Shown one piece after another: positions 12,079-33,310 of a stretch of DNA of 33,310 nt. Origin of the DNA: Cafeteria roenbergensis (Eukaryota; Sar; Bigyra; Bicosoecida; Cafeteriaceae); the NCBI GenBank assembly GCA_008330645.1, contig VLTN01000112.1:1-33310 (forward strand). The letters are read 5' to 3'. The notes beneath the pieces were generated by a model. The model was not told the DNA's origin. It made no database searches and saw only the letters and a list, made by a program, of their open reading frames with translations. The translations under genes were made by a program, and so were the position numbers. Each line of letters starts with the position of its first letter. The first letter of the stretch is position 1.

Positions 12079-13086
12079 ATGCCCCGGTGCAAGGTGGTGG
12101 TGCCAAATGAGGAGCGGCGCCCTGCCGTCGTGAAGCGAACCGAGTGGGCGTCTCCCGAGGAGGAGGCGGTGATGGTGAGCCGCGTGGAGAAGCCCGCGCG
12201 CGGCCTCCACCGCTTCTGGATCATCCTGATCACCGGCGGCATGTTCCACGTGTTCCTTGCTTACTCGCTCATCGGCTGCCTCTTCAGCGAGTTTGTGCTC
12301 GGCTGGCCCTGGTACATGTCGCTCGGGGCCTTCCTCGCCGCTTACATCACATACGTATCCATCGCCGCAACGGAGCGCGTTGGCGCGCCCGACCCGCACA
12401 TTCGCGGCCAGCAGGCCATGGCCACGCTGCGAGACTACCTGTCCCTCAAGTGCGTGATTCCTGACGACGTGGACCTGGACCCCAAGCCCGAGCAGCAGCC
12501 CCCCAGCTACATCTTCGGCTCGCACCCGCACGGCATCCACGCCTTCGGCTGCTCCGCCCTGAACTTCGCGGGCAACGACATGGCCCGGTACTTCCCGCGC
12601 GTGTGGCACAGGCTGACGGGCGCGATCGCGTCGGTGATTTTTCGCGTCCCAATCGTCCGCGAGGTGATGCTTGCGCACGGCTACAGGGACGCCTCCCGCG
12701 CCGTCTGCGAGAAGATCCTCCGCGAGGGCCGCAGCGTCGTGCTCGTGCTCGGGGGCGAGCAGGAGTCCATCCGCACCCGCGGCGGCGAGGACGCCGTGTG
12801 GCTGAAGAACCGCAAGGGCTTCGTCCGGCTGGCCATGCGCGAGGGGGCCTCCCTTGTCCCGACCTACTCGTTCGGCCTCGTGGACATCTACGACTACGCC
12901 TTTCCCCTGCAGGCGCTGCGCATGTGGATGGTCAACACGCTCCGCGTGTGCGTGCCAATCTTCTGGGGAGTCGCAGGCACGCCCTGCCCCTACGAGCGGC
13001 CCGTGACCACCGTGGTCGGCGCTCCCATCCACGTCGAGTGGCCCCCCCGAAGAATGAAAATTCCAAAATTTTCACTTCTTCTATAA
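12079..13086 (+). pseudogene. DGAT2-family acyltransferase, right copy, truncated by the EMALE
   Basis: The frame is intact from ATG 12079-12081 through the HPHG motif (residues 149-152) and the GGEQESIRTRGGEDAVWL and RKGFVRLAMREGA blocks. At residue 321 host sequence ends (13041) and 14 residues read from the EMALE end follow, up to TAA at 13084-13086. About 100 C-terminal residues present in the left copy are missing. The catalytic motifs are upstream of the break, but loss of the C-terminal part of a DGAT2 usually disturbs folding, so the product is probably not functional. It keeps the five-G and three-C runs that are altered in the left copy and so shows the likely original reading frame. 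Confidence 0.88.
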
Positions 13087-13104
13087 CCGCCAGCGGCGGT
13101 TATA
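13082..13104. repeat. Perfect 10-bp hairpin near the EMALE left end
   Basis: The arm TATAACCGCC (13082-13091) is followed by the loop AGC and the exact reverse complement GGCGGTTATA (13095-13104). It lies 40 bases inside the element end. Confidence 0.85.
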
Positions 13105-13511
13105 TCCACCCTACGGGACACACCTAGGGGTTTTATCTTACGGGTTATCTTATAGTTCCATCTTAATATATGCCATGTCACTGCCCTAGGTATAATCTTA
13201 TATATTTCCATCTTTTGGCAGCTAAAAATGAAAGAGTATAATAAAATACCCTAGTGCCCTAGGATACCCCCCTTTTTTCAAGAAAAATAATAGATATATT
13301 TATAGAGTAATATCAGCGGTTTTATCGGGCCATACTAGGGCAGCCCATATTTTAAAAGGAAATCATTCGGGGGAAAATTTAATTTTCCATTTTTGAGAAG
13401 GAAAACAAAAGGAAACCGCCTGCCCCGGTGTGCCACCTTAATTTTAATCTTCTGTTTGGTCCCCATTAATGGGTATATTCAACGGGCCCATCACGTAGTG
13501 GATAATAATAA

Positions 13512-13531
13512 AATTTCAATTTATTGAAATT
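13512..13531. repeat. 8-bp hairpin in the EMALE terminal region
   Basis: The arm AATTTCAA (13512-13519) is followed by the loop TTTA and TTGAAATT (13524-13531). Confidence 0.6.
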
Positions 13532-13606
13532 TATCCTTTTCAACACTGTACGGTTCTTAAAGTTATGGCTCCACAAATCTTACCACAATAATTACAAATT
13601 TTAATT

Positions 13607-13666
13607 AAATCTCTAGGACAAAATTAAAAAATGGGTTAAAGAAAAAAAAAACTATAGTATTATATA
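13607..13666 (+). promoter_or_regulatory. Helicase promoter/leader with conserved CTCTAGGACAAA block
   Basis: The order of blocks is CTCTAGGACAAA (13611-13622), ATGGGTTAAAG (13631-13641), ACTATAGTA (13651-13659) and TATATAATG into the start codon. The same blocks in the same order precede PolB at 16755-16814. The two replication genes thus share a promoter layout that other genes of the element lack; they have only TCTA. Confidence 0.75.
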
Positions 13667-15574
13667 ATGTCTAATCAAAATATTAATAACATTGTTTTCA
13701 GTTTAAACCATCTTAAAAGTTTAGTATCACAAAATCAAGAGGAAGAAGCTAAAGCTTATATAGAAAAATTCTTCTTTCATACAACAGTCGGTACATTTTT
13801 TAAGGATGCTCTTCATAATCAATGGACCCTTATACATGAAAAAAATTTAAAAAATTTTATATCATCCGATATTGATAATGATAAAAAAGGAACAAAAAAT
13901 TTTAATGCTAGAAAATATTTAAACCAGAGCGAATTTATGGGCAAAACTTATTATTTGGATGTAATCCCTAATAGTCCCGATCAAGTATTAGAAAAGGAGG
14001 TGACAGTAAAAGGTATTCAATATAATCAAAAGGTTTTAAATATGATGTGTGAGCATCTTCATGATGTTGAAAAAATCCCAAAATTTGAAGAGTTTGAAGA
14101 CTCTACCAAAGCACAGTGCAAGCTCATGTTAGACCATATAAAAACAGTATGGGCAAATAATGATGATGATATGTTTAAATATATCATTCAATGGCTCTCA
14201 CATTCATTCCTAGGGCATAAATTAGAGACCTTTTTATATCTCCACTCCACTGAAGGAACCGGGAAAAGTATTGTGTTTACATTTATAAGCCAGTTTGTGC
14301 TAGGTCATATGAGGGCGATTATGACCTCAACCCCTGCTCATATAACAAAATGGACAAAGATTTTAGAAGGTACCTCCCTTGTTAATCTAAACGAGATGCC
14401 CGTGTCTAGTGATTATAAAGGATTTAACGAAGCTTTAAAAAATTTAACAACCGAGCCGATGTTTTTTCCTGAAGACAAGGGTGATAAATTCTACCGTCAA
14501 AAAAACACTTTTAATTTTATTATCAACTCAAATAAAGAAGCTATCCAACTTAGTGCAGATAATAAAAGACGGGTGGTAAGTCTTGATATTAACGAGTGTT
14601 ATATTAATAATGTTTCATATTTTGAAAAATTAGTGGGTCAATGTTATAATAAAGAGTGCGGAAAATGTTTTTATGCTTTTATGAGAGACTCATACGACCC
14701 CAAATTTAAAGCAAATGTTAAGCCTTTAACAAAATCTTATGCGGAAGGATTACAAAAACGGCAACCACTACATATTAAATATTTAAAAGAAGTAATAAGA
14801 AAAGGTACCGACTTACAATTAACATGTGACGGTTTTTATGCTGATTATTCTTCATGGTGTAAAGAAAACAAACGGAACCCAAGCGATAAATTAGCTTTAG
14901 GTAAATCACTTGAACAAATAGAAGGAATTAAACGGGTCCGTAAATCATCAAAAGGAGTACGAAATTATGTTTACGAAATAAATATCCAAGTAATGTACGA
15001 TTATTTTAAAACTCAAGATTATATAAACGAGTACGATAATATTATAGTAGAAGATGGAAAAGTCCAAACTATTAAACATAAAGACACATGCGACTTTATT
15101 GATGAGGATGATGACCCAGACGACCATAAAAGAAGCATAGCCGACTGCGAAAAGATAATCAAACAACAAGCCGAAGAAATTGAAAAGCTTAAAAAACTAC
15201 TTGAACAACATCAATTAAATAAATTATCCATAACTCAAGAAATTAAAAAGGAAGTAGAACAAAAAGCACCAGTAGAACCCGAAGAAATTGAAAGCGACAG
15301 TGATGATGAAGAAGAACCGCCAAAAGTCAAACAAGTACCAAAAATTAAACCAGTAAAAACTAAAAAAATATCAATGAGAGCCGCAGCTGTACCTGTCAAA
15401 GAAGAGAAAGAAAATAAAAACATAACATCAACCACTGTTCAAGCTTCTAAAATAATCAATCCTGAATTAAAAGAAAAGAAAACAAGAAAACCAAGAGCCA
15501 AAAAAGAAACCAAAGAAACCAAAAAACCCACAACAATAAAAGCCAAAACCGCAAAAATAGGTATTTCATTTTAA
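13667..15574 (+). CDS. SF3 (D5-like) replicative helicase
   Basis: A 635-residue protein for replication of the element. The SF3 ATPase core is clear: Walker A GTGKS at residues 197-201, Walker B LVNLNEMP with Glu near 243, a sensor strand ending INSN near 285 and an arginine-finger region NKRRVV near 302. The N-terminal 180 residues resemble the region before the ATPase in D5-type helicases, but no primase motif could be confirmed. Residues after about 480 form a charged Lys-, Glu- and Pro-rich tail with a probable coiled coil near 500-530. Mavirus has an equivalent helicase gene. The ATG at 13667 follows the conserved leader directly. The gene converges with the integrase, 52 bases away. 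Confidence 0.92.
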   Translation: MSNQNINNIVFSLNHLKSLVSQNQEEEAKAYIEKFFFHTTVGTFFKDALHNQWTLIHEKNLKNFISSDIDNDKKGTKNFNARKYLNQSEFMGKTYYLDVIPNSPDQVLEKEVTVKGIQYNQKVLNMMCEHLHDVEKIPKFEEFEDSTKAQCKLMLDHIKTVWANNDDDMFKYIIQWLSHSFLGHKLETFLYLHSTEGTGKSIVFTFISQFVLGHMRAIMTSTPAHITKWTKILEGTSLVNLNEMPVSSDYKGFNEALKNLTTEPMFFPEDKGDKFYRQKNTFNFIINSNKEAIQLSADNKRRVVSLDINECYINNVSYFEKLVGQCYNKECGKCFYAFMRDSYDPKFKANVKPLTKSYAEGLQKRQPLHIKYLKEVIRKGTDLQLTCDGFYADYSSWCKENKRNPSDKLALGKSLEQIEGIKRVRKSSKGVRNYVYEINIQVMYDYFKTQDYINEYDNIIVEDGKVQTIKHKDTCDFIDEDDDPDDHKRSIADCEKIIKQQAEEIEKLKKLLEQHQLNKLSITQEIKKEVEQKAPVEPEEIESDSDDEEEPPKVKQVPKIKPVKTKKISMRAAAVPVKEEKENKNITSTTVQASKIINPELKEKKTRKPRAKKETKETKKPTTIKAKTAKIGISF

Positions 15575-15626: not shown

Positions 15627-16703
15627 TTATTTTTTAAAATCTCTTTCTAATTCCTTAAATTGATCCGTCCCCAACTCACTAATTAAAAAAGTTCTATCCT
15701 GCCAAAGCTGGTCCTTTTCCTCTTCAAATCCTTGATATTTTACTAAAAACTGTACCTTCCCTTTTTGTTTTCGTTTATTTAAAAACTTTTCAATTTTATA
15801 AACTCCATCTGGTAGTTCTTCTTCCTCATCCTCACTCTCACTTTCAACCTCATTATTTAAGGGTTCTATTTGTTTTTTAGTATATGCCACTCTGTCTTTT
15901 TGATTAACCATATATAAAGGGGGAGTATTAGGTTTTAAAATTACGTTCTCTATTTCATATACTTTCGGGTCATATCTTATATCGTTACTTCTAAACTTTT
16001 TAGTCGGGTAAGGTTCTCCCGTTTTAGGATGGACGGGATGCTCTAAAGGAATTCGTACCTTATCATCTACTTTTAATAATTCACAAGCATCACCCTTACA
16101 TTTAGGGTACTCCATTTTGTCAGGAGGTTTAATATTTTCTTGTGATTTGTTATAAACTCTAACAATGTCGGGCAGTAAATCAACCCATTTAAATTGCTTA
16201 TTTTTTAACATTCCTTTATTTTGATAAACACCTACTAATTTTCCAATTATAAAATTAATATTCTCTACCAGTCCATTTTGACGGCTTCTATATGGTTTAG
16301 TATATTTAATAGATGAATTTTTGGACTTGAAATAATCAACCACATTTTTATTTTTAAACTCTGGTCCGTTATCAAATTGAATAATCGCGGGAGGTGTTAA
16401 ACCATCATTTTTATAAATTTCTTTAAATGCTTTAACTATTTCTTCCCCGTTTAATGTTTTTAAGGGATAAGCTCCTATTTTTCTATTATAATCAGCCACT
16501 ACTAAAACATACTTAAAACCGTTTTTATCTGCTGGTAAATATAGGACGTCCGCCTGTTGTTGTACATTTAGTTTTAAAATAGGAACATGAACACGATTAG
16601 GTGATGAATCTTTATTAAGGTCTTTAGAAATTTTTAAAATTTTTTCTTCTTTATTAAATCCCAAATCCTGTGCTAGTTTTAACCAAAAATTATTACTACT
16701 CAT
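15627..16703 (-). CDS. Retroviral-type (rve) integrase with C-terminal chromodomain
   Basis: A 358-residue DDE integrase of the mavirus/Polinton type that would insert the element into host DNA. Catalytic residues are visible as D52 (QQADVLYL), D111 (FDNGPEF) and E147 (GLVENIN), with exactly 35 residues between the last two, giving DD35E. The TKPYRSRQNG block before the Glu is typical of the family. After an acidic linker (ESEDEEEE), residues about 293-340 form a chromodomain with FLVKYQGF and a downstream Trp, which in related integrases binds methylated histone tails. No N-terminal HHCC zinc motif is visible. It is divergent from PolB and shares a 108-bp intergenic promoter region with it. 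Confidence 0.93.
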   Translation of the reverse strand: MSSNNFWLKLAQDLGFNKEEKILKISKDLNKDSSPNRVHVPILKLNVQQQADVLYLPADKNGFKYVLVVADYNRKIGAYPLKTLNGEEIVKAFKEIYKNDGLTPPAIIQFDNGPEFKNKNVVDYFKSKNSSIKYTKPYRSRQNGLVENINFIIGKLVGVYQNKGMLKNKQFKWVDLLPDIVRVYNKSQENIKPPDKMEYPKCKGDACELLKVDDKVRIPLEHPVHPKTGEPYPTKKFRSNDIRYDPKVYEIENVILKPNTPPLYMVNQKDRVAYTKKQIEPLNNEVESESEDEEEELPDGVYKIEKFLNKRKQKGKVQFLVKYQGFEEEKDQLWQDRTFLISELGTDQFKELERDFKK

Positions 16704-16811: not shown

Positions 16812-17398
16812 ATGAACGACGAAGAAATTGATTTATTAGAATATGTACAAAACTTAACCCGTCAAGATATAAGACCAAAAGATAAGAAGAAACAACTAAA
16901 ACTGGACGGGAAACCAGTAAAAGCTGACTATTATAAAATTATAGATGAAGAACAAGCTTATGACCATAATACCACAATAGAAATATTAAACGAACTACTT
17001 AAACAGGAAGAAGAATACCAAGATAAACTGCTTCAAATTAGTTTTACATATGATGATAAACTAAGCTTTTCAATATCTCACGGATTTTTTGAGGTTAAAC
17101 AAGATGGAAACTTATACGGCGACACTTATAGTTTCTTTGATGATTACCCCGACACAAAACACAGGGTACAAGATGTAATCACAGGGTTTGCCGTGTTCTA
17201 TGTTGATAAACCACAAAATGCGGGGGGATGTGATGGAAAATATAATAATTGTCTTTATCATTGTCTACAGGATTCAATGGGGGACCGTGTGCCATGGAAA
17301 CAAGCCCAAAACATGAAGAAATTTTTAAAATTAAAAAAGAAAGATAAGGTACCTTATGAATTATTAGACCAATTAGAAGAAAAAATAAAAGCGAATAT
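16812..17398 (+). CDS. Protein-primed DNA polymerase B, N-terminal part (interrupted by Ngaro)
   Basis: The first 195 codons of PolB, joined with 23829-25095 to 617 codons if the retrotransposon is removed. The part contains an acidic N-terminus and a Cys-rich stretch (GGCDGKYNNCLYHCLQD, about residues 137-153) as found upstream of the polymerase core in virophage and Polinton PolBs. Its exact role is unknown to me. As the sequence stands, the frame runs 10 codons into the Ngaro A1 repeat and stops at 17427-17429. The ATG is fixed by the conserved leader. Confidence 0.88.
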
Positions 17399-17657
17399 AT
17401 ATATTATGACCGTAGGGTCGTTTGGTTGAACCCACGGGGTAGGTGCGTACCCCTCGGGCGGCTCTGCCGCCCGATGACTCTGCCCAGGGAAAAGGACCTC
17501 ATGGCCTGCGCCCTGAACCGACACACTTGAGGACTCCCTCGCCGAGCACTCGCTCGCTGCCTTTTCGGCTCCCAGCAACGGGTGCGTACGCTCCACCCAA
17601 CGCAACAGGCGACGTCGTCGCCCTCCAGTCTGTGCGTGCGCGCGTGAATTCGTTTCC
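17399..17657 (+). repeat. Ngaro A1 repeat
   Basis: 259 bases identical, as far as I compared them, to 23408-23666 with a constant offset of 6009 and no indels. It contains the hairpin CGGGCGG-CTCTG-CCGCCCG at 17455-17473. It probably holds the element promoter, since it is the 5' end. Confidence 0.93.
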
Positions 17658-17667
17658 TTTCGGTACG

Positions 17668-19482
17668 ATGCCTTCGCCCCCGCGCATGAACGACGCCTTC
17701 TGGGCCGCCCTGGCCGATTCCGGACTCCCGGAATCTTGGGAAGACTGGCAAGTCCTTCCGCAGCTGAGCAGGATGGTCCGGCGGGCGCTCCCCCTGTCCC
17801 CGGGAACAGTGGCTGCGCTGCGCTGCTCCCCGTCGTCCGGCTTCCTGACGCCGTCCCAGCCCCCGCGCACTGTCATCGGGGCCATCCTGTCCCGACTGGA
17901 CACCGGCCCCCCCGAGGCAGGTGCTGCGGCCACGGACCGCCTCCCACTGGAGGCCGGAGGCATGGTTGTTCTCATCGCAACTGATCCCCGCCTCAAAGAA
18001 GCTCTGCCCGACTTATCTCCTGCTCTCGATGCCTTGTCAAGCCTCGTATCCGACGCCGAGCTCGCCCGGGCCTGGACCGGGTTTGACACCGCCCATGAGG
18101 CGGCCGTTTTCCACGCGAAGGCGCTCGCGCTGGCCCAGTTGCTTGCCGCGTCGGTGGCAGCGGCCGGCCCTGAGCGGCCGGACGGCCAGTCGTCTACCAC
18201 GCCGGGCGCGCCCGGCTCCGCCCGCGCGGCAGGCACTGCGGTCCCGGGGGAAACCCCACCGGACTGTGACCTGTCGGACTTTGCGGCGGCTTCCCGGACC
18301 GCGCCGGCTTCCGCCGGCGGTCGGCGGGTCTCGCCAGCGAACACGCTCGCCGCGGGCGAGGGCACTCGCCCCACGGACCTCCGGGCTCGACTCGTCGGTG
18401 CCGTCAGCGCGGCGGCGGCCGACGCTGCTGGCAGGGCCAGCGCGCTGGGCTTTGTCGACGTTGCTCGCGAGCACTGCGCCACGGCACTCCTGCTGGACAT
18501 GGACCCCAAGGGCCTCCGCTCCACGGGGGCTCCGGCGGACGCCGCTGCGGCAGCCTTCGTGAGGGACCTCGCTACGGGTGCCAGGCCCAGACCTATCGAC
18601 GCCGCCCGGTTCCTTCGCACCGCGGCCCTCGCGATCTCGAGGATTCGGGACCAGTCCCGCTACGCGCCTCCCGCCTTGGCGGGTGCGGCGGAGGCTGTGT
18701 CGGCCACGCTCCGCAAGGCGGCCGAGGACATCGAGACGGCCCTCCTTTCCTTCGGCGACGACGACCTGGCTCAAGACCGTGGTCCCGAGGCCAGCGAGGT
18801 CGCGTTCACCAAAGCCATGACGAGCGCCCTGGGCAAGGCGCTGCGCCCCGTGATCGCCGAGAACGCCGTGTTCCTCAGCGTGTGCTCGGTCGGCCCCGCC
18901 TTCGGCCTCAGTCTGGCCGTCCTTTCCTGGTCATCGATTTTCCCAGTCACGGACGCGGGCGTCGACGCCACCTGGAGCGAGGCCGTCTCATATCCGCGTC
19001 GGCGGGCACCGCCGGACCGCCCGGCGTTCGTCCTGCCAACCTCTCGCGACATTAGCCCGTGGCTTAGCGTCCCCTCCGAGCCCACCCAGGCGGCGACCGC
19101 CGCTGCTGCCTCGGGGCGCGGCTCGGCGGCAGCAGCGACGGCGGCGATGTCAACCAGCCGGCCCCTCAAGTCCGGCTCTACCAAGCCGAGGACTGTTACC
19201 GCCGCCGTACGGCTCCTCCTCGGCATGTCGCCTCACGAGGCCTCCACGGCGATCTCGGACGAAACCGGCGACGTCGTATGGCTCGAGGTCGGCCGGGCCG
19301 CTCCCAAGGACCGCCTTGCTACCCTGAAGCGCCTGGCGGGACGTCCCGAAGCGACGGAGGCTGACTTGTGGGCCCGGCTCGCGGCCGCCGGCGCGTCGGG
19401 TACGGCCACCTCTCTCGCCGATCTGCTAAGGGGTCTGCCTCGCGTTGGCCGGTCGGATTTTCGAGGCTCTCCGCGGCGCTGA
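17668..19482 (+). CDS. Ngaro ORF1 (Gag-position) protein
   Basis: 604 codons from the first ATG after A1 (17668); the frame is open further upstream through A1 from 17443. The protein is rich in Ala, Pro, Ser and Arg and has no zinc knuckle that I can see. Its last 90 residues (about 515-604) form a domain shared with the relic element at 4377-5543: MSPHEAS, a conserved Trp, a Lys/Arg-rich helix, LWARLAAAGASGTATSL and LLRGL. By position it should act as the structural or nucleic-acid-binding protein, but its function is not established. The stop lies inside the start of the RT frame (overlap 19368-19482). Confidence 0.85.
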   Translation: MPSPPRMNDAFWAALADSGLPESWEDWQVLPQLSRMVRRALPLSPGTVAALRCSPSSGFLTPSQPPRTVIGAILSRLDTGPPEAGAAATDRLPLEAGGMVVLIATDPRLKEALPDLSPALDALSSLVSDAELARAWTGFDTAHEAAVFHAKALALAQLLAASVAAAGPERPDGQSSTTPGAPGSARAAGTAVPGETPPDCDLSDFAAASRTAPASAGGRRVSPANTLAAGEGTRPTDLRARLVGAVSAAAADAAGRASALGFVDVAREHCATALLLDMDPKGLRSTGAPADAAAAAFVRDLATGARPRPIDAARFLRTAALAISRIRDQSRYAPPALAGAAEAVSATLRKAAEDIETALLSFGDDDLAQDRGPEASEVAFTKAMTSALGKALRPVIAENAVFLSVCSVGPAFGLSLAVLSWSSIFPVTDAGVDATWSEAVSYPRRRAPPDRPAFVLPTSRDISPWLSVPSEPTQAATAAAASGRGSAAAATAAMSTSRPLKSGSTKPRTVTAAVRLLLGMSPHEASTAISDETGDVVWLEVGRAAPKDRLATLKRLAGRPEATEADLWARLAAAGASGTATSLADLLRGLPRVGRSDFRGSPRR

Positions 19483-22082
19483 CTCGGCGCCTCCGCGGAG
19501 TATTGCGTGAGGAGCGCGCCGTCCCAGCCGACGCGCGCACTGACGCACAGCCGAGCACTAACCGCACACACGAGGAACTGTCGGCCGCGGCCACGCCAGC
19601 GCCGCGCGCCTACAACCTCGCCCCGGTGGTCGCGCGGGGACCACGGCGCCGGGACCCCGGCGGGCCCTGGCCGCGTCGGGGGCGCCCACCCGATGGGCGG
19701 ATGTGCTCCACGACGCGGGCCCGGCCCCTCCGGCGTCGCGCGGCTCCGCCCGGCGGCGCGCGGCCACTGTCCCCGGTCGTTCCGGACCCCACGCCGAAGC
19801 CCGGTGCCCTGGGTCGGCGGCGGTCCGCCCACGAGGACGGCCCGCCGGGGGCCCCGCCGGGCAGCACGCCGAACCCGGGTTCCGCGCCCGGCGGGCCCCC
19901 ACACGACGGGCCGGCGGAGGTGCCCCTGCAGCCTCCGGCCCGTCTGCCAGTCGCCACGCCGTACCGGGCCAGCCCAGCCGCCGAGCGATACCGCAGCTCG
20001 CTGACCGCGCCGGCTCCGGTTGTCCCAACGCCCCCACAACGGGTCTCGTCCTCGGGGCAGTCGTGGGCGGCCCCCGGATCCCCCTCTGTACACTTCCAAC
20101 GCGCGGCGGCCCTCCTCGCCGCTAATGACATGGACGTCCACTCCGTTCCGCCGGAGGAGCTGGGCACATGGCTCGGCGAGCTGTCCCGTTCCGGCGTCCT
20201 CGCTCCGGCCGTCGACGCGGCCGCGAACGAAGCCGCGTCGTCGGCCGGCGCCCGCCACGACGGCTCGCCCGGCACGCTGGCGGATTTCCCCGTCGTGGCT
20301 CCGCTCGCCAATCCTGACGTGCCTCGGCTCTGCCCTGTCGCGGTCCTGCGGGAGCTCCGACGCCCTGGCGATTCGTCCTGGCACCACGCCTTCGCGTGCG
20401 CGCTCCTCGGCGCCCCGGCGGAGCTTTCGCGCCCCGTCGCGGCCTTCCAGCCTCGTCCGAACCGCCTGGACAACGCCGGTACCGCGGACTCTGTCCAGTC
20501 GCTACTCCGGCGGGACGCCGACAACTGGTGGATCGTCCCCGTTCCCCCCGGGGCGCGGGCACCGCCGCCGAGCCCCCTCAGCCTTGTCGCGAAGACCAAC
20601 GGTCGGGGTCGGCTTATCTGCGACGACAGCAGCCGATCCCGCTCGGGGAAGATACGCGGGCCGAACGGCGCCTGCGACACCAGTCGCCTGCCTTTCCCGG
20701 CCACCGTGTCCATCCCGGGGGTGGCGGCTTGGCTGCGTACTGCGCCCAGCCCGGCGCCGGGCCAGTCCGTCTTCCTCATGTCGTGGGACATCACGACGGC
20801 CTTCCGCCGCATCATGCTCTCGGCCCAAGCGCGGGGGGCCGCGTCTGTGCGGTGGGCGGGCCGCACGTACCGCGTCACCACCTGCAGCATGGGGTCGCGG
20901 TGGTCGTCCAGCGCCATGAACGCCATCGTTCACGCGGTGGCTAAGAGCCTCCGCCGCGCGGATGGCCGGGCCCGCGTCGTGAGTTACTGCGACGACACGC
21001 TGGGCTACATGGTCGGCACCAGGGCGGAGGCAGACGCCTTCCGCCTGTCGGTCATCCGCAGATTCTCCGCGCTGGGGCTCCCGATGGCTGAGGCCAAGTG
21101 CCCCCCGCCGGACACCTCGATTCAGTGGATCGGCCTCTCCATCTCAACGGCCGGCCCAGAGGCCACCATCGGCTACACCCCCGCCCTGGCGGAATCCCTC
21201 GAGCAGGAGCTGGCGTCCGTCACGGTCCGCGGGGCCGTGTCGCCTCCTTCTTTGCGGCGCCTGCTGGGTCGCCTTGGCTGGTTGGCGTGCGTCGCTCCGC
21301 CGGTCGGGCTCTGGCTACGCCGGCTGCGCCAGGCCCTCTCGGGGGCCGCCTCGGGTGCCCGGTTCTCTCGGGCCGCGGCCTCGGGCGCCGACCGCTTACG
21401 CAGTCTTTTCGTACGCCGCGTCTGGCCCGTCTCCGACGTGTGCCGCAGGGCGTTCCCGGACAGGTTTCCGGCCGTCACCCTAATCACGGATGCTTCGTCC
21501 TCTCGGGGCGGCGCCGTCGCCCTCGCGGCATCGTCGGTGGTCAACGGCGTCCTGCACGACGGTACGCGGGGCCGTGGCCTCCTCCCCACGGCACTCACCG
21601 TCGAGTACGACGCCCGCGTGCCGGCGTCCACGAGGTCGGAGCTGCTCACGGTCGTGCAGGTGGTCCGTTCCAAGGCGAACGCTCTCGCCGGCAGGTCGGT
21701 GCGCCTGTTCTCGGACAACATGGCCGCTCTGGCCGCGTCCCGCGGGAAGGCCAGTTCCGTTTCGGCGCACGCCGACGACCTCGGCGAGGCCCTTGCCGCC
21801 CTGCTGCTCGACAACCGTATTTTCTTGGAGGCGTTGCACATACCAGGCGTCGAGAACGAAGCGGCCGACTTGATCAGTCGCCACGACTGCGTCTTCACCG
21901 AAGAATTTGCGGCCGGCTCTGCCACCTGGGCCACGGGCCTCCGCCACGCGTGGGAGCGCGTGGCCCCCACAATCCGGTCGGCGCGGGTCGATGGCATCAT
22001 CCTTCGCCCGCGGTGCGAGCGGATCCGAGCTGGTACCGCGTGTCCTGACAGCGGCGCAACGATCTTTTCGGCGCGTGCCTGA
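19368..22082 (+). CDS. Ngaro reverse transcriptase with RNase H
   Basis: An open frame of 904 codons; the real start is uncertain because the first codon of the frame is GTG and the first 200 residues are Pro/Arg-rich and unrecognisable. The reverse transcriptase core shows motif A MSWDITTAF, motif B TCSMGSRWSSSAMN and motif C SYCDDTLGY with YCDD at residues 540-543. RNase H follows with TDASSS (Asp near 708), the RSELL Glu, SDNMAAL Asp and HIPGVENEAADLISRH near 824-839, the ending typical of DIRS/Ngaro RNase H. The frame overlaps the end of ORF1 by 115 bases and the recombinase by 92, so translation probably uses reinitiation or frameshifting. Confidence 0.92.
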   Translation: MGPARGRRRVGYGHLSRRSAKGSASRWPVGFSRLSAALTRRLRGVLREERAVPADARTDAQPSTNRTHEELSAAATPAPRAYNLAPVVARGPRRRDPGGPWPRRGRPPDGRMCSTTRARPLRRRAAPPGGARPLSPVVPDPTPKPGALGRRRSAHEDGPPGAPPGSTPNPGSAPGGPPHDGPAEVPLQPPARLPVATPYRASPAAERYRSSLTAPAPVVPTPPQRVSSSGQSWAAPGSPSVHFQRAAALLAANDMDVHSVPPEELGTWLGELSRSGVLAPAVDAAANEAASSAGARHDGSPGTLADFPVVAPLANPDVPRLCPVAVLRELRRPGDSSWHHAFACALLGAPAELSRPVAAFQPRPNRLDNAGTADSVQSLLRRDADNWWIVPVPPGARAPPPSPLSLVAKTNGRGRLICDDSSRSRSGKIRGPNGACDTSRLPFPATVSIPGVAAWLRTAPSPAPGQSVFLMSWDITTAFRRIMLSAQARGAASVRWAGRTYRVTTCSMGSRWSSSAMNAIVHAVAKSLRRADGRARVVSYCDDTLGYMVGTRAEADAFRLSVIRRFSALGLPMAEAKCPPPDTSIQWIGLSISTAGPEATIGYTPALAESLEQELASVTVRGAVSPPSLRRLLGRLGWLACVAPPVGLWLRRLRQALSGAASGARFSRAAASGADRLRSLFVRRVWPVSDVCRRAFPDRFPAVTLITDASSSRGGAVALAASSVVNGVLHDGTRGRGLLPTALTVEYDARVPASTRSELLTVVQVVRSKANALAGRSVRLFSDNMAALAASRGKASSVSAHADDLGEALAALLLDNRIFLEALHIPGVENEAADLISRHDCVFTEEFAAGSATWATGLRHAWERVAPTIRSARVDGIILRPRCERIRAGTACPDSGATIFSARA

Positions 22083-23196
22083 AAGCTGGACGTTGGACCC
22101 CGACGCGCCCTCGCTGTGGGCGGCGACTGGGGCCGTTCCGTCGTGGGATGGCCTCCTCACATTCTGCGAGGCGGTGGCCCACGCGGCGGCGTTCCACCTC
22201 GGAGGCAGCGCACGAACCGTACCGTGCGAGCCGTTCGCAAGCCTGCCTCATCGGTACGGCCCAGGCTATGCCGCCCTGGTCGCCCTCTGCGACAAGACGT
22301 CCAAGCGCATCACGTCCGTTTCGGCCGTCCGGTGGTACGCTCACCGCAGCCGCCTCCTCGACCGCGCTTTTCCCCCGCTACGGCTGATTGCCGACGACGC
22401 CGCTGCCTTATTCGCGTTCCTCGCGGCCCGCGAGTGCTTGTACCTGAGCGCTGGGACCGTATCTAGCTACATCGGCGCCATCACCGGCTTCGCCGGCCGC
22501 ACGATGGGCGTCCGCAGCACGCCAGACGTGCTCGCCCACAAGCTGGTGGCGGTCCGGCTCGCGGCGTGGCTGCCGAAGACCGTTGACACGCGACCCCCGG
22601 TGCCTCGCCGCGCGTTCCTCGACGCCTGCAGTGACAAGTCCGCGCCCCTGGCATGCCGTCTGGCGCTGGCCTTTTGCTTCGACACGGTGAGTCGATCCTC
22701 GGACTACCTGACCGAATCCCGTGCGGACAGCTGCAAGCCTGTCCCCATGCCCCTGGGCCACGTGACCGTCGGCCTTTGCCCCAAGGGTTTCCCCGTGGTG
22801 GACCTACGCACCACGGTGAAGGGCGATCGGAAGGGCGTGGTCACCACTATCCGGGCCAGCTGCTCCCCGGGCTCGCCCGAGTGCCATCCATGCGGCCTTA
22901 ATGCGGCCAAGAACATTCGCGCGTGGGTCGTCTGGCGTCGAGAGCGCGGCGCGTCGCCAGACGAGCCGTTGTGGCGCCTCGCGGACGGCCGGGGCGCCAC
23001 GGCCAAGGACGTGCTGGACCTCCTTCGGAAGCACACGGATCTCGCCGTATCGCTCCACACGACGAGGATCTCCAGCGCCAGCGAGGCGGTCGCGCGGGGC
23101 GGCTTCACCCTGGGCCAGCTCGCCACCCTAGGCGGCTGGTCCAGCGCCGACGCCTGTCGCCGCTACGTCCGCACCATCGTTGTGGGCGCGTCCTGA
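21991..23196 (+). CDS. Ngaro tyrosine recombinase
   Basis: 401 residues from ATG 21991-21993, which lies inside the end of the RT frame; a TTG-started extension to 21907 is less likely. It integrates the circular or linear cDNA in place of an integrase. Catalytic positions are visible: the first Arg in CFDTVSRSSDYL, the H-x-x-R box HTTRISSAS (His 356, Arg 359), the GGW pair near 380 and the nucleophile Tyr 392 in RRYVRT. The N-terminal SAM-like DNA-binding half precedes it. A damaged homologue is at about 5600-6690. Confidence 0.92.
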   Translation: MASSFARGASGSELVPRVLTAAQRSFRRVPESWTLDPDAPSLWAATGAVPSWDGLLTFCEAVAHAAAFHLGGSARTVPCEPFASLPHRYGPGYAALVALCDKTSKRITSVSAVRWYAHRSRLLDRAFPPLRLIADDAAALFAFLAARECLYLSAGTVSSYIGAITGFAGRTMGVRSTPDVLAHKLVAVRLAAWLPKTVDTRPPVPRRAFLDACSDKSAPLACRLALAFCFDTVSRSSDYLTESRADSCKPVPMPLGHVTVGLCPKGFPVVDLRTTVKGDRKGVVTTIRASCSPGSPECHPCGLNAAKNIRAWVVWRRERGASPDEPLWRLADGRGATAKDVLDLLRKHTDLAVSLHTTRISSASEAVARGGFTLGQLATLGGWSSADACRRYVRTIVVGAS

Positions 23197-23262
23197 GCCC
23201 AGCCGTCGGCTGCTCTGCAGCGCCCTCCTACTACACCCGTAAGTGGCCATGGGCGGCACGGA

Positions 23263-23408
23263 GGGCAGAGCCGCTCTGGCTCTGCCCGCCGTGCTGTTGG
23301 ACTCTCCCTCCAATCGAGTCCTTTCTGCCACTCACGCGTCTGCCGGCGCCAACCTACACAGCTACTTCGGGCCGGCACTCCTCAATACCACCGATACCAC
23401 AGGGTTCA
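23263..23408 (+). repeat. Ngaro B1 repeat
   Basis: 146 bases matching 23684-23829 with a constant offset of 421. It opens with the hairpin GGGCAGAGCC-GCTCT-GGCTCTGCCC (23263-23287). It begins 67 bases after the recombinase stop and abuts A2. Confidence 0.92.
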
Positions 23409-23666
23409 TATATTATGACCGTAGGGTCGTTTGGTTGAACCCACGGGGTAGGTGCGTACCCCTCGGGCGGCTCTGCCGCCCGATGACTCTGCCCAGGGAA
23501 AAGGACCTCATGGCCTGCGCCCTGAACCGACACACTTGAGGACTCCCTCGCCGAGCACTCGCTCGCTGCCTTTTCGGCTCCCAGCAACGGGTGCGTACGC
23601 TCCACCCAACGCAACAGGCGACGTCGTCGCCCTCCAGTCTGTGCGTGCGCGCGTGAATTCGTTTCC
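23408..23666 (+). repeat. Ngaro A2 repeat
   Basis: Second copy of the 259-base A repeat, starting at the last base of B1. The 17 bases 23667-23683 between A2 and B2 are unique. Confidence 0.92.
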
Positions 23667-23683
23667 CACCTCTCCCAGCCCTC

Positions 23684-23829
23684 GGGCAGAGCCGCTCTGG
23701 CTCTGCCCGCCGTGCTGTTGGACTCTCCCTCCAATCGAGTCCTTTCTGCCACTCACGCGTCTGCCGGCGCCAACCTACACAGCTACTTCGGGCCGGCACT
23801 CCTCAATACCACCGATACCACAGGGTTCA
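23684..23829 (+). repeat. Ngaro B2 repeat
   Basis: Second copy of the 146-base B repeat; it forms the right end of the element. The shared sequence ends in CACAGGGTTCA, and the next base belongs to PolB. Confidence 0.92.
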
Positions 23830-25095
23830 ATTTTAAGCGGATCATATGTTAGAGAATCCAGTATGCAATATACCGAAACTATAAGAATTACCCTAAAAGA
23901 TGGTCATTACTCATTGACAGAAAAACGTACCAGACTTCAAAAACAGATCGAGGGAAACTGCCGCCATTACCATAACGAACCTGAAAAGAAATTATTAATT
24001 TTTCAAAATCATGAAAATAAAATAAGAGCATGGGATGGTGCGACTTTTACTTATGTAGATAAATCAAAGTATACAACCTTAGAAGGATTAAAAATTAAAT
24101 GTCCAGATGATGAAGATATTAAAGAGTTTTACAACATGACAAAAACAGATTTTAATTTATTAAAAGAATTATCTAATGGAAAATATAACCCCTTTAAATT
24201 CTATAATATTATACAATTAGCCGAAGATATATTTTTACAAAATTTTAAAGGTGTAGAACCTGAACCAATAGAACAAGAAGAAGCATTAATTTTAAATAAG
24301 GCCATGGGTGGAGGTGTTAGATATGCCAAACCGGGAACCTATAAAAATGCTTATGATTATGATATTAACAGGTTTTACCCGCATTTACAACTGACCTTAA
24401 GTGTACCAGTTTCAAAACCAACCTTTAAAACAATTGAAGAATTACCCGACATTTTAAAATATGGAATTTATAAGTGTCAAATTATAACCAAAAATAAATT
24501 ATTTAAAGCCAACCGCTATAATTTATATACTCATTACGATTTAAACGCAATAAGGGAAACCATGAAAGCAGAAATTAAATTAATAAAAAATGATGGGTGG
24601 AACCTTATGCAGTATGAAGGAAAACGGATTCAATTATCAAGACTAGGAAAAGATTATAAAAAGCTTTATGACATATCAAAAAAAGGATGCAAAGTGGCAA
24701 AAATGGCGATGAATTGTTTATGGGGTGCCATATCTAGAAGAAAATTTAAATTATTATATACTGATACTTTAAACGAACCTTTAGAGCTAAACCTTAAGGA
24801 TAAGTTAAGGAAATTAGAATATAGTGATGTTATTCAAGTAGAAAAAACCGACACTTTCAAAGCTTATGCTAATGATATAGGCGGTCGGTTTAGTGTTTTT
24901 TTAACAGCAAAAGGAAGATACAAACTAAACCAGATCATCCAGCCACATAAAAAATATATTAAGTATGTACATACTGACGGATGGATAAGCTCTAAAGAAT
25001 TAGATTTAACTTTAAGCGATGAATTTGGCGGGGTTAGACTTGATAAAAAAGGCGATGTAGAAATTATAAATAAAAACATTAAGAAATATATTTAA
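23829..25095 (+). CDS. Protein-primed DNA polymerase B, C-terminal part (catalytic core)
   Basis: Codons 196-617 of PolB after removal of the retrotransposon. Motif A is YDYDINRFYPHL (Asp 374), motif B has KMAMNCLWGA (Asn 491) and motif C is YVHTDGW (Asp 579), where the usual DTDS is HTDG as in related virophage polymerases. The protein would copy the linear element from a terminal protein primer. As it stands the frame is open backwards through B2 and A2 to 23452, giving a 547-codon chimeric frame. The catalytic core thus lacks its own promoter and N-terminus and is presumably inactive. Confidence 0.9.
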
Positions 25096-25886: not shown

Positions 25887-26384
25887 ATGGAAGGTAGAAG
25901 AATTTATAAATTACACTCAACCGATCACGAAAATGTATATTACGGAAGCACTAAACATCCATTAAACCAACGATTAAGTAAACATAAAGCCGATTATAAA
26001 CAATGGCTTGTTAAAGGCGGCACATGTACAACATCACGAGTATTATTTGAACGAGCAGCAACTCCTGAAAATGTTAAGATTGAACTGATGGAAGAAGCAA
26101 CAGAATTAAATTATTTAGAACGGGAGCGGTACTACATAGATAATTATAAATGTGTAAACAAGAATATACCATCTAGAACCGTTAAAGAATATTGTAAACA
26201 ATATTATCAAGACAACAGAGAGCAACTATTAGAAAAGATTAAAGAATACAATCAAACCAACAAAGAAAAATTAAGAAAAAAAAATATTTGTGAGTTATGT
26301 GGTGGAAGTTTTACACATGAAAATAAATCACATCATTTAAAAAGCAAAAAGCACCAATCAGTATTAAACCACGAAGTATTATAA
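25887..26384 (+). CDS. GIY-YIG endonuclease with C-terminal zinc finger
   Basis: 165 residues. The GIY-YIG signature is present in degenerate form as IYKL (6-9) and YYGST (18-22), followed by the conserved Arg in LNQRLSKH and the metal-binding Glu in YLERERYYID (about 78-80). A helical linker leads to a zinc finger with C135, C138, H150 and H156. Mavirus also carries a GIY-YIG gene. Such nucleases cut DNA one strand at a time; in virophages the role is unproven and could be processing of replication ends or homing. Confidence 0.88.
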   Translation: MEGRRIYKLHSTDHENVYYGSTKHPLNQRLSKHKADYKQWLVKGGTCTTSRVLFERAATPENVKIELMEEATELNYLERERYYIDNYKCVNKNIPSRTVKEYCKQYYQDNREQLLEKIKEYNQTNKEKLRKKNICELCGGSFTHENKSHHLKSKKHQSVLNHEVL

Positions 26385-28927: not shown

Positions 28928-29645
28928 TCATTTTTTAGTTTTACATCTACATCTGCCACCTAAAAATGTTTTTAACTCATGTGCTTTAAGATGATCGGAT
29001 GGTGTTCCCGTTAGTTTGAAAGGGAATTTATATTTTGAAACATTAGGAAGGAAAGAAGAAGTTAAAGCCAGCGGATCATGTTCTATAATATGAGTCTGTA
29101 CATTTTTTAAATTATATTTACTAGACCTTAAATTATTAAAATTAACCGCGGGATTAAATAACACCGCTTTTAACTGGGTAAAATTTAGATAATTCTATAA
29201 TCATTCCCCCGCCTAATGAGTGTCCCGTTAAAATTATATTCGCGTTTGGGTATTGTTTAATAGCGGCTTCATAAACTTTTTTAAGTTCTAAAAATCGGGG
29301 AGAGTTAGATAATGTACCTTTAACTATGGCCACATCGTCGTTTAAATCATCCTGGTTAAATTTGTCGGTTCCTCTTACTGCTATAACTATATTATTATTT
29401 TTTTTGAATACTCTAAGTCTAAGAGTTGAATATATGTTTTTCCATCCTTCTAAAGTTTTTACGGGGTTATTATAGGTAGATTGTGCTAATTTCACTATTT
29501 CTTTTAAGTTTTGGTTTATATCACTAATATTTAAGGTTGGTTTATTTATTCGTCTAAATCCTTCGGGTATATCTTTCACTAAGTTCCATAATGGTTTAAT
29601 GAATCCTGCTTTTTTTCCTTTTCCTTTTGTTCTACCTTCCCCCAC
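28928..29645 (-). pseudogene. Class 3 lipase domain, split by a frameshift; likely C-terminal part of a larger protein
   Basis: The first frame (29154-29645) holds RGTDKF and the nucleophile elbow GHSLGGG, then stops. The second (28928-29164) holds LFNPAV, EHDPLAL and a C-terminal HELKTFL. The catalytic Ser, Asp and His of a class 3 (alpha/beta-hydrolase) lipase are therefore spread over two frames. One G fewer at 29164-29165 would join them. The first frame has no ATG; 29645 is GTG, and the frame is open upstream into the end of 29762-30841 with no TCTA box. One A more at 29775-29777 would fuse it to that gene, giving 637 codons from 30841 to 28928. Either two sequence errors in one long gene or a decayed gene. 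Confidence 0.75.
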
Positions 29646-29761: not shown

Positions 29762-30068
29762 TTAATTCTTTCGCTTTGGTTGTCTTGATGCTGTTACATT
29801 TTCTTTCATATTGAAAAATACATCCCTATCCAAACGTTTAATTTCATCATCAGATAATTCTGTTTTTAAATCTTTAATTCTTTCTTTTATTTTTGGTGTT
29901 AAGGCCGTAAACCATTTAGCAGGTCCAGCTGCGGGTGTTTCTTTTACATCTTCATCATCCGCATCTTCTGAGTCGCTTGTGATGACTTCATGAAGTCGTG
30001 CCGCATCTTCTGTGAGCATATCATTGTCCGCTGAAGATGCAGCAGCTGCAGCAGCAGCTGCGGGAGTG

Positions 30069-30108
<40 letters not shown>

Positions 30109-30841
30109 TAGCAGATTTTACGGGTATGCCTTGAATTTGTTTTATAGCATATTTATTTATGTCTTCATATGGTGATGAATTGGAAAATTTTGATGTATCA
30201 AACCCTAAGTCACCTAATAAAATTAGTTTTTTGGGTACGGAAATTCCAAGCTTTCCATTTCCATCTCTTGTGAAAATTTCAATTAATCGATCTTTTGTTT
30301 TTCTCTCCATTGCCTGGACTTCTTCGTCTAATTGTGAGTTTGGTGCATCTTTTTTACCTATTATTTTAAGTAAATCGGATACATATCCAATTAATCGTTC
30401 TTGATGCTTGTCGGAGAATTGTGGAGAAGTTCCAAAAGGTACGATCAATTTTTCTTTAAATCCTGTCATATAATTTTTTATTGCTTCTTCTGTTGCTGCT
30501 GGTAAATCTTCAGTTAAAACTATATCATTCAGCCGCTTAATTTGGCCTCTTAAAATTTCAAAGCTTGGATTAGGTTTTTTAAATTCATTAAAAGATGAAT
30601 AAATTAAACCTCTTACTTCTTGACCTTTTCGTGATTCTCTTAAAATCATATCTAAAGGTTTATATTCGTCCCGTTCAAATTTTTCAAGCACTACCTCCTG
30701 TTTTAGTTTCTCTTTTCGTAAAGATTCATCAACCCCTCTTTTAAATAATTCGTCATTGTTTGAAGCTTCCGCCCTGGCTTTGTATTGTTCGCCACGTTTG
30801 ATCGCTATGTTTAATAAAAAGTTTCTCAGTGAGTTGTCCAT
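29762..30841 (-). CDS. Large protein of unknown function, probable N-terminal part of the lipase protein
   Basis: 359 residues as read. The N-terminal 230 residues are helical and charged and I do not recognise them. Then comes a low-complexity linker of alternating Ala and Pro and a run of Ala (plus 30035-30110), an acidic patch SDSEDADDED, and a Lys/Glu-rich end. The last 15 codons overlap, in another frame, the open upstream extension of the lipase frame. The linker and overlap suggest a two-domain protein, N-terminal scaffold plus lipase. ATG 30841 has a TCTA box 14 bases upstream. Confidence 0.78.
30035..30110. repeat. Ala-Pro and poly-Ala microsatellite inside the gene
   Basis: GCAGCAGCTGCAGCAGCAGC is followed by tandem GGAGCA hexamers. 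It encodes an alternating Ala-Pro tract and a run of Ala, a likely flexible linker of variable length. Confidence 0.85.
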
Positions 30842-30854
30842 ATATATAATAAGT

Positions 30855-30858
30855 TAGA
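30855..30858 (-). promoter_or_regulatory. TCTA promoter motif of the 359-residue protein gene
   Basis: On the minus strand TCTAAC is followed by an AT-only leader ending in TATATATATGG at the start codon 30841. Confidence 0.65.
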
Positions 30859-30915
30859 TATTAAATTTTTAGATTAATATTTTTTTTGATAAACAAAAAA
30901 CCTAAATTATATTAT

Positions 30916-31677
30916 ATGAAGCTCACACAACGGAATATTAAAAAGTTTAACAAGACTAACCGATCAATTTTAAACCAGCTTAACTTCGAACATGGTAAAA
31001 CAATGCGGCTTAATGGGTCTTATCCTTTGAGTTTATGGGCGAGTGATATAGATTTATATCAAAAAATTGATTTTACGGGAAATATGATTAAATTATTAAT
31101 GGAAGCGGTATATAATATTTTAAAAATGATAAAAAAAGACCCGATTATAGAATTTTCCAAGCTTAAAATAGGAGATAAACCGATTAGAAATATAGACGAT
31201 GCTCTAAAAGTTTTAAAATCTTATACAAAAGTATTTTAATTTTACTTAATAAAACCTCTATGAAATGGTTAAAATTAGATTTATTTTTATTTTCTGGGGA
31301 ATATTTAGAGGATTTGGACTATTATCTATGATTTTTCAACATCAACAAATTTAGCGGATGAAGATTTTAAAAAATTATTTTTATGATGAGTTTAAATTAT
31401 ATGTTAAAAAGAAAAATTATGTTAAAGCATTAAAAAGATTAAATAAAATTGAAAATAAATTTGATGATATTCTAAAACGACTCATTTATTGGCTTTGGGT
31501 ATTTGACCATCTCACGGCTTAAAAGTGTTCAAGACTCTAAAATGAATAGTAAAATTAAAAAGTTTGTTTTATCAAATTTAAAAGAAGATATTTTTTATAA
31601 AATTGGCGGCATATGATGAAAGATTAAGTAACGGGAAATTAAAATATTTATCTGATATCCCTAAAAATGATAAATAA
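30916..31677 (+). pseudogene. Nucleotidyltransferase-like protein, frame-broken after 31239
   Basis: The first 108 codons (30916-31239) are open; ATG 30916 is preferred to the TTG-started extension from 30886. Residues 34-46 read GSYPLSLWASDID, the G-S then D-x-D pattern of the polymerase-beta nucleotidyltransferase fold. After the stop, another frame gives MKWLKLDLFLFSGEYLE at 31260, where L-K-L-D fits the third catalytic Asp strand. Further pieces follow: a 54-codon frame at 31358-31522, then MNSKIKKFVLSNLKED and a last piece ending at TAA 31675-31677. Together they suggest one gene of about 250 codons broken by several indels. The substrate is unknown; giant viruses carry similar uncharacterised proteins. 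Confidence 0.55.
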
Positions 31678-31935
31678 CTTAAATAAAAAAATTAAATGAT
31701 AAAATTATTTCTTTGGTGGATCTATCCAAAATATAATTAAATATATATTTTAATGCATGTAAAATTTTAAATGTTTTTTTCTTAATTTTTTTTAATAGGT
31801 GCAGAATTTTAAAAAAAAATACACATAGACTATTTTTTTAAAGCTAATTTTAAATTACCTCTTTCAATTTATTTTAAACGGCTGTCAAACTAAATTATTA
31901 TAATTTAAAAATAAAATCTATCTTTTTATATATAA
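31678..31935. other. AT-rich spacer before the packaging ATPase
   Basis: No open frame of note and no recognisable site except TCTA at 31917-31920, 16 bases before the ATPase ATG. Confidence 0.6.
31917..31920 (+). promoter_or_regulatory. TCTA promoter motif of the packaging ATPase
   Basis: AAATCTATC, then an AT-only leader TTTTTATATATAA before ATG 31936. Confidence 0.6.
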
Positions 31936-32815
31936 ATGAGTTATTAATGAGTTAAAAAAAGGTTATCCAATTGCGGAGAATAAAACTTTAGGACGGTAAC
32001 AGTAAAAGTAAATTAATTTATTTTGATCCGAGTTATGAAATGGACGATGACGAAAGGTACGGATTATTTTCATACAAATGGTAAGGATCTTTTAGAAGTT
32101 ATTCCGCCAAGTATTTCAAGATAAAGGAAATAGACAGTGATAGATATTTTATTAGCGGTCAAAGTGGTTCGGGTAAATCTACCTTTGTGGTACAATTAAT
32201 ATAGATAAATACACCAGAGCAGGAATTAAGCATTTTTTTGCCATAACAGACAAACCAGACCGCCGTTTTGGTAAAATTAATATTTAGATATTAATGATTT
32301 TGTGATTCCTTATGAAAATGAGGATGAAGAAGAAAATTAAATTATATGAAAAAAGAAAAAATTAAATTCAAACATCTTAAAAAATTTCTAGAACCTGAAG
32401 AAGTGTTAAAAGAAGAATTAAGAACTAATGATTTAAAGGTTAAATAAAGGACCAAAAAACATGGTTATGCAATTAAAGGTGTTAGTAACACGAAGATATA
32501 GCGTTGAATATTTTTATAAGATCCGTTATATTTTGTGAAAATGAATTACGAAAAAAAATAAAGATGAAATTACATTTGAAGTTACGGGATCATTTATGAA
32601 CACAAGGAAGTGCATATATAAATGTAATATGATAATAAGCCAACTAATACGAGCACACAAGGAGGCCACTCTTCGATCTTATCAAACAGAACACGACTAC
32701 ATTAGATTTATTTTAAAAAATCAACTCTTATCAACGGGACAGGACTTCTTAAAAATTATTTAGGATTAAAAAAAAGACAAAGGGACTGTAGATAAATATT
32801 ATTAAATCGGCGGTG
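31936..32815 (+). pseudogene. FtsK/HerA-type genome-packaging ATPase, heavily frame-broken
   Basis: Pieces in changing frames follow the order expected for a virophage packaging ATPase: KKGYPIAENKTLG, then FDPSYEMDDDERYGLFSYKW, then YFISGQSGSGKSTFVVQLI with Walker A GQSGSGKST at 32157-32183. Next come KYTRAGIKHFFAITDKPDRR and, much later, LLKNYLGLKKRQRD near 32747-32790, a motif typical of the C-terminal part of this family. Frame changes occur every 40-100 bases. The Walker B strand could not be placed. The ATPase pumps virophage DNA into capsids. The break density is like that of the left window edge, so sequence error is as likely as decay. The right limit is approximate. Confidence 0.72.
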
Positions 32816-33310
32816 GTTGTTATAATATAGATATAATCATTTAACCACTCACACACAAAAACGTGTTTAATACGACACTATATAGAAATAAATAATAAAA
32901 AATTATCCTCTTTGTTTATATATGTTAAAGAAGCAGATAATAAAAAATTTATTAAATTAACAGCTCTAATCCTTCAAGAATTACGGATTTATGGCACTCA
33001 ACATTACCAAATGAAACGAATTAAATGTTATAGAGATTATGACGACATTATTAATGTGTAAAATATAAAATGATTATTTATGAAATGATAACAAATTAAA
33101 TAATTTTTATCCTAATCACAGAGGGAGGTTTTTATATGGTCATTACTTGTGCTTTAAGTATGGGGTCAGATAATGACACAGTTTAATTTTTGTTGATTCC
33201 CTTACGGAGACAGACCAGATGTAAGATCCAAAAAAGGTACGCGGAACACAAAGAAAAGACCTTTATAAAAGAAGAAGAAAAAGCTTATAATTACTGTTAG
33301 AAAAGTGGGT
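32816..33310. other. Frame-broken AT-rich end of the window
   Basis: Short open pieces on the plus strand (for example around 32921-33060 and 33090-33180), none longer than about 45 codons and none recognisable. In mavirus-type elements protease and capsid genes follow the ATPase, but nothing here can be assigned to them. Confidence 0.4.

Follow-up and report, generated by a model that had tools for sequence, protein, structure and literature searches.

A Ngaro Retrotransposon in the pPolB Gene of a Provirophage That Splits a Host DGAT2 Copy in Cafeteria roenbergensis

Structure of the Locus and Its Junctions

The stretch of DNA analyzed here, contig VLTN01000112.1 of the Cafeteria roenbergensis assembly GCA_008330645.1, forms in its entirety our window of 33,310 bp (C112 below) and carries a host DGAT2 gene copy split by a provirophage, an endogenous mavirus-like element (EMALE), whose polymerase gene pPolB is in turn split by a Ngaro retrotransposon (Table 1). 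This nesting, put forward in an earlier reading of the letters alone (the original prediction), is confirmed at the assembly level, all evidence for it and for the junctions coming from assembled contigs and sequence comparison within an assembly of 36,303,456 bases and 167 contigs. The identifications of DGAT2, of a mavirus-type element, of its PolB, of the Ngaro and of Cafeteria hold on profile, homologue and motif evidence. The GC content falls from ~0.67 to 0.30 at 13.0 kb, is ~0.70 across 17.4–23.8 kb, and is low again thereafter.

Up to 13041, the window belongs to a tandem array whose units recur every ~9.1 kb and each contain a DGAT2 copy and a large AAA-type gene. Two DGAT2 copies, a and b, are 98.05% identical and match the Pfam DAGAT profile (copy a, 2846–3709, E=4e-12; copy b, E=5e-43, profile positions 16–254 of 297). 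The host/EMALE edge lies at 13041|13042, where copy b ends in GTC-GAGTGG and is followed by the tip of the terminal inverted repeat (TIR), CCCCCCCGAAGAATG, while in the empty site of copy a GAGTGG (3941–3946) continues into ACCCTG, ACCCTGCACC. Contig C122 holds this TIR in reverse, followed by GAGTGGACCCTGCACC and the other half of DGAT2 copy b. The duplicated target is 6 bp, or 5 bp if all seven bases of the C/G run are counted as TIR (one base is ambiguous), and over 623 bp the left and right TIRs differ by no substitution and four gaps. Thus the empty paralogue in the window and the second gene half on C122 bear out the claim that the EMALE was inserted into a host gene. A search of the assembly for the empty site found 11 places, nine of which, including copy a, read through, and two of which are half-copies only (C112:12796-13045 and C122:12987-13286). 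Since there are only two half-matches, each meeting a TIR, one DGAT2 copy was split and both halves of it are known. A host/virophage chimera at the outer junction is ruled out, as both DGAT2 halves adjoin a TIR with the matching duplication. The statement that every junction is readable at base level stands for three of the four; the fourth, the right EMALE/host junction, is on C122, the window ending inside the EMALE.

Within the EMALE, the gene order is helicase, integrase, pPolB, GIY-YIG, several unknowns, and a lipase-like gene. The integrase chromodomain matches PF00385 at E=1.1e-4, under its cut-off, and the integrase has no match in a phage collection. TCTA occurs within 100 nt upstream of 9 of the 11 EMALE open reading frames (ORFs), against a mean of 4.0 in shuffled upstream sequences (1 of 2000 shuffles reaches 9) and a rate of 0.43, or 4.7 of 11, in random 100-mers of the element. 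The capsid protein (MCP) gene, an open frame on C122, matches PDB 6g45, which we take to be mavirus, over residues 1–600 with 1103.5 bits. Next to it are ORFs of 222 and 194 aa with no Pfam match (and, for the 194-aa ORF, no PDB match), and searches of this morphogenesis module (MCP, PEN, ATPase, and PRO in EMALEs) on C122 did not identify an ATPase. The helicase and integrase frames are likewise open, in the window. Leaving aside the Ngaro, the EMALE comprises 13,839 bp in the window plus ~5.55 kb on C122, ~19.4 kb by arithmetic over two contigs; a TIR pair on C55 (198127, 217971) spans 19,845 bp. The TCTA motif is a mark of EMALE type 4, and mavirus target duplications measure 5–6 bp (PMC8547959); in agreement with that article in both type and duplication size, the element is a type-4 EMALE of the mavirus kind.

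The two pPolB pieces align along P0017, an uninterrupted public pPolB homologue of 617 aa, which means that intact copies exist. Neither piece matches Pfam. The C-terminal piece matches the DNA polymerase family phrog_262 (E=1.2e-5), and its comparison with viral contigs gave 12 stretches and no relative, that with the PDB no match. The Ngaro occupies 17400–23829, with one shared A leaving a 1-bp ambiguity at each edge. The C-terminal part of pPolB is found at 10 places in the assembly: seven are uninterrupted, C112 and C119 have a Ngaro end, and C102 lacks ~0.2 kb there. Four of the uninterrupted copies (C55, C96 at 36 kb, C150, and C2) have neither extra nor missing bases at the site; the copy on C96 at 67 kb crosses the site, but ~150 bp are missing ~34 bp beyond it, and those on C121 and C16, near the contig starts, join left to right with small indels. 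The comparison with other EMALE copies thus supplies seven pPolB copies in which the left side is joined to the right. Compared with C55, C96, C150, and C2, the Ngaro was inserted without target-site duplication, which to our knowledge is the rule for Ngaro elements. While the Ngaro stays, this copy is predicted to be unable to make whole pPolB, because the first 195 residues are separated from the rest.

The Ngaro is structurally complete, with the arrangement A1-ORFs-B1A2B2. ORF1 has no Pfam match; ORF2 matches PF00078 (RVT_1) at E=8.1e-7, with 29.4 bits against a cut-off of 29.6; and ORF3 matches PF00589 only at E=0.24 and is 99% identical over 87% to the public protein P0022. No Pfam match to RNase H was found in the Ngaro ORFs, and none of the three ORFs has a hit to a methyltransferase domain with an E value of 1 or less, the absence of the latter separating Ngaro from DIRS elements (PMC4157794). 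In the part of PMC4157794 drawn on, nothing was found on Ngaro integration. As a separate observation, 23452–25095, from the Ngaro A2-B2 repeats through the C-terminal pPolB piece, shares one open frame of 547 codons.

Table 1. Coordinates and evidence for the features of the 33,310-bp window
Feature	Position	Strand	Evidence or remark
DGAT2 copy a	2846..4255	+	EMALE target uninterrupted; as assembled, frame breaks at ~3.7 kb
DGAT2 copy b, first 376 codons of frame	11914..13041	+	cut by EMALE; 3′ part on C122
Target-site duplication GAGTGG (or AGTGG)	13036..13041	.	junctions in window and on C122
Left EMALE TIR, starts CCCCCCCGAAGAATG	13042..13664	+	compared with right TIR on C122
EMALE primase/helicase	13667..15574	+	PF19263 DUF5906 E=6.8e-12
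EMALE rve integrase, C-terminal chromodomain	15627..16703	-	PF00665 E=1.9e-9; public homologues
pPolB N-terminal piece, residues 1–195	16812..17399	+	192/195 identical to P0017 residues 1–195
Ngaro, 6,430 bp, structurally complete	17400..23829	+	A1-ORFs-B1A2B2; edges against uninterrupted copies
Ngaro A1 repeat	17400..17657	+	100% to A2, 258 bp
Ngaro ORF1 frame, putative Gag	17443..19482	+	open frame, 679 codons
Ngaro ORF2, reverse transcriptase, RNase H presumed	19368..22082	+	open, 904 codons; SYCDD box
Ngaro ORF3, tyrosine recombinase	21907..23196	+	open, 429 codons; HTTR motif, Tyr near C-terminus
Ngaro B1 repeat	23263..23408	+	100% to B2, 146 bp
Ngaro A2 repeat	23409..23666	+	100% to A1, 258 bp
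Ngaro B2 repeat	23684..23829	+	100% to B1, 146 bp
pPolB C-terminal piece, residues 197–617	23830..25095	+	419/421 identical to P0017 residues 197–617
EMALE GIY-YIG endonuclease	25887..26384	+	PF01541 E=1.2e-5
EMALE lipase-like gene	29154..29645	-	PF01764 E=2.2e-6
EMALE right part, low-quality contig end	31250..33310	.	capsid gene and right TIR further on, on C122

Other Copies in the Assembly

The Ngaro ORF1 stretch (18000–19000) is present at at least three places (C112, C8, and C20) and the ORF2 stretch at at least five (the same three, C133, and C7). The C8 copy adjoins capsid-like genes of another EMALE (MCP 25% identity), with a GC content of 0.37 on both flanks; the DNA around the C20 and C7 copies is at ~0.7, and the flanks of the C133 copy are at 0.59 and 0.55. 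Two of the three ORF1-bearing copies thus sit in a low-GC EMALE and neither of the two ORF1-less ones does, a bias in the same direction as in PMC8547959, with numbers too small for a test. In that article, 91% of type-1 and 82% of full-length type-2a Ngaros sit in EMALEs. Solo AB repeats occur on C38 and C6.

The prediction that host genes are unharmed holds in part. The EMALE does split one DGAT2 copy; at nine other places the site is uninterrupted, and among these only C78 and C113:10769 are free of stops and frame breaks over DGAT2 residues 17–376 (introns ignored). The C78 and C113 copies are identical in score and may be one copy assembled twice, and the remaining copies have stops or split frames as assembled (introns likewise ignored). 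Because DGAT2 is a gene family, the cost of the insertion to the host is probably small, although the frames of many copies are broken as assembled.

Several further observations concern the host array and other EMALEs. The AAA-type gene (7051–10323, minus strand, 1,090 aa) belongs to a large family, with 51 matches, some being pieces of a single gene, from the 42 of 78 candidates that were scored; more than 12 matches are restricted to about the first 240–295 residues, at 69–81% identity and inside long frames, and a 33-bp repeat in the gene varies in copy number. Between DGAT2 and the AAA-type gene, 5238–5513 and 5857–6638 form the relic of a different Ngaro (ORF1-like, 40%, and recombinase, 38–51% identity; reverse transcriptase ORF unmatched), a stretch that is also found on C122. 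Among EMALE copies, the TIR and helicase versions switch together (13042–17399), and a joint change of this kind is likewise noted in PMC10945749. Contig C53 (C53:1-9757) begins in the integrase of another EMALE, which from TIR to integrase is ~6 kb longer than that of the window, as if a Ngaro-sized insert were present.

History of the Insertions

We consider it very probable that two separate insertions took place, of an EMALE into DGAT2 copy b and of a Ngaro into the pPolB gene of the EMALE. A type-4 EMALE would have integrated into copy b of the tandem array by means of its own rve integrase, duplicating 5–6 bp of target. Both junctions, the duplication, the empty sites, and the integrase gene are observed, and this integrase presumably acted. 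The complete Ngaro, with edges that are base-precise against natural uninterrupted copies and with its A1-ORFs-B1A2B2 arrangement, would have been inserted at pPolB codon 196 by its own tyrosine recombinase, target bases being neither duplicated nor deleted; this enzyme and this order of events are the ones we favor.

The contig that bears most on this history is C119, which starts inside the Ngaro A2 repeat and continues by way of B2 into pPolB, the junction falling on the same base as in the window (C119:1-383), its Ngaro end being low-quality sequence of 96% identity. It matches the window to its end at 97.6% and is almost identical over 24.5–31 kb. The TIR on its right side is a different one (84% across the outer 109 bp), and the adjoining host DNA is shared with C96 at 97%, so C119 represents an EMALE at another locus. 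For the same reasons, continuation of the window into C119 rather than C122 is not favored. From the Ngaro to window position 26222, C119 has seven substitutions against the window, with bases found in no other copy compared; these are typical of a noisy contig start, so that a Ngaro of its own is not proven for C119, and the Ngaro found on it at this pPolB base may be a product of misassembly.

An assembly switch, in which the DGAT2-borne EMALE was Ngaro-free and assembly of the contig ran on into reads from a different EMALE that does carry a Ngaro, such as that on C119, would be suggested by the near-identity of C119 over 24.5–31 kb, by its start in the Ngaro at the same base, and by a mixed pattern of single-nucleotide differences among C112, C119, and C122. 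The latter belongs to several points that weigh against two insertions at this locus. Over their overlap (window 26156–33310), C112 and C122 are just 94.9% identical, which we attribute to contig-end noise. At 31.5–33.3 kb the window departs from both overlapping contigs by many small indels and substitutions and resembles an unpolished contig end, so that broken frames there are no evidence of decay. At 31 gap-free differences between C119 and C122 in the overlap, the window has the C119 base 22 times and the C122 base 9 times; C121 agrees with the window at 15 of the 22, as expected if the noisy C122 end is at fault. Of the sites at which the four contigs, C121 included, split two against two, 30440, 31068, and 31079 link the window with C122 and 26371 links it with C119, and an element switch also fits. 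Differences near gaps split 12 against 14, the window alone differs at 20 gap-free sites (19 lie beyond 31500), and at eight sites of substitution between the window and C119 (26222–31304) C122 sides with the window at seven. The link between C112 and C122 rests on the duplication, not on these differences. Furthermore, the link from the Ngaro to the DGAT2 element is seen on contig C112 alone, and within the EMALE middle, where copies are nearly identical, the assembly could have passed from one element to another. However, only 4.36 kb separate the host junction from the left edge of the Ngaro, the helicase and integrase-pPolB stretches in between are matched identically nowhere else in the assembly (the best others are at 98% and 99%), and assemblers broke contigs at coverage drops (PMC6972860), all of which makes an assembly switch improbable.

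Two further histories are compatible with the anatomy described for two insertions. The Ngaro-bearing pPolB could be older than the DGAT2 insertion, either because a Ngaro-laden EMALE integrated or because the segment was gained by recombination between EMALEs. This is in line with the same Ngaro end at the same pPolB base on C119, at another host locus and with a different right TIR, and with the mosaic nature of the window EMALE, which is close to C55 and C96 (36 kb) over 13.0–15 kb and closer to C150 in the integrase and N-terminal pPolB. On the other hand, the seven C119-only substitutions up to 26222 leave that part as perhaps a noisy borrowed end, reads of reactivated virophages mapped to no full Ngaros (PMC10945749), and the EMALE and Ngaro would together total ~26 kb; an older Ngaro is therefore rather unlikely, and we regard it as decidedly doubtful that two EMALEs from separate host loci (C112/C122 and C119) have a single pPolB insertion in common. 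Alternatively, or in addition, the Ngaro could be a reversible resident that is removed when the EMALE reactivates, pPolB being only conditionally broken. Ngaro-containing EMALEs have been described that match BV2, BV8, and EV2, whose reactivated forms are Ngaro-free, and excision was proposed (PMC10945749, 2024); here, the insertion is base-precise and without duplication, and the recombinase is encoded in an open frame. The assembly shows no excision product of this copy, though, the solo AB repeats on C38 and C6 point to an imprecise outcome as well, and unseen Ngaro-free alleles would equally explain the published case, so reversible residence is a tentative possibility that we rate below even chances. 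For the proposal that the Ngaro silences the virophage, the separation of the N-terminal (195 aa) and C-terminal (421 aa) pieces of pPolB is in its favor, while silencing itself would be a consequence deduced from that separation, and the reactivated forms without Ngaro (PMC10945749) make its permanence doubtful.

Significance and Relation to Known Elements

The locus is a base-resolved example of a published nested parasitism of host gene, provirophage, and retrotransposon, and the view of the EMALE as a safe harbor and of the Ngaro as a parasite of a parasite is in substance the published one (PMC8547959). The nesting pattern was already published for this organism in 2021: four assemblies yielded 138 EMALEs and 80 Ngaros, with 20 analyzable Ngaro-in-EMALE sites, one of them in pPolB (PMC8547959). 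New here are the pairing of the EMALE/host junctions, the location in a tandem DGAT2 array, and the recurrence of the Ngaro on C119 at an identical pPolB position. As the interrupted pPolB should lose its product in cis, the locus offers a test bed for distinguishing a Ngaro that kills the virophage from one that leaves on cue. Should the C119 copy prove genuine, an EMALE with a Ngaro on board would have spread or recombined, which would be evidence of retrotransposons riding on virophages. If the insertion is indeed shared, a virophage with a broken polymerase, together with its Ngaro, was copied or recombined into a second locus, polymerase function being supplied in trans by intact pPolB from elsewhere or by a different polymerase, and a Ngaro can travel with a virophage.

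The closest known system is EMALE04 of Cafeteria burkhardae (PMC8547959, PMC10945749), with which the window element shares low GC, TIRs, helicase, integrase with chromodomain, pPolB, GIY-YIG, lipase-like gene, TCTA motif, a capsid of the mavirus kind, a 5–6-bp duplication, and insertion in a host gene. It lies within the published variation, although its tandem DGAT2 target is not named in the main text of PMC8547959, which contains neither “diacylglycerol” nor “acyltransferase”; the locus is probably listed in the supplement, and no paper joining “virophage” and “DGAT2” was found in the literature searched. The Ngaro resembles those of C. burkhardae (type 2, as we infer) in its A1-ORFs-B1A2B2 arrangement, three ORFs, and length of ~6.4 kb, and ORF1-less relatives exist; its position in pPolB corresponds to one of the 20 analyzable sites, possibly this very one (PMC8547959). 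An EMALE03 of strain Cflag with two Ngaro1 elements inside Ngaro4 likewise presents nested mobile elements that include an EMALE, but that EMALE lies in a retrotransposon, whereas the one described here lies in a host gene copy (PMC8547959).

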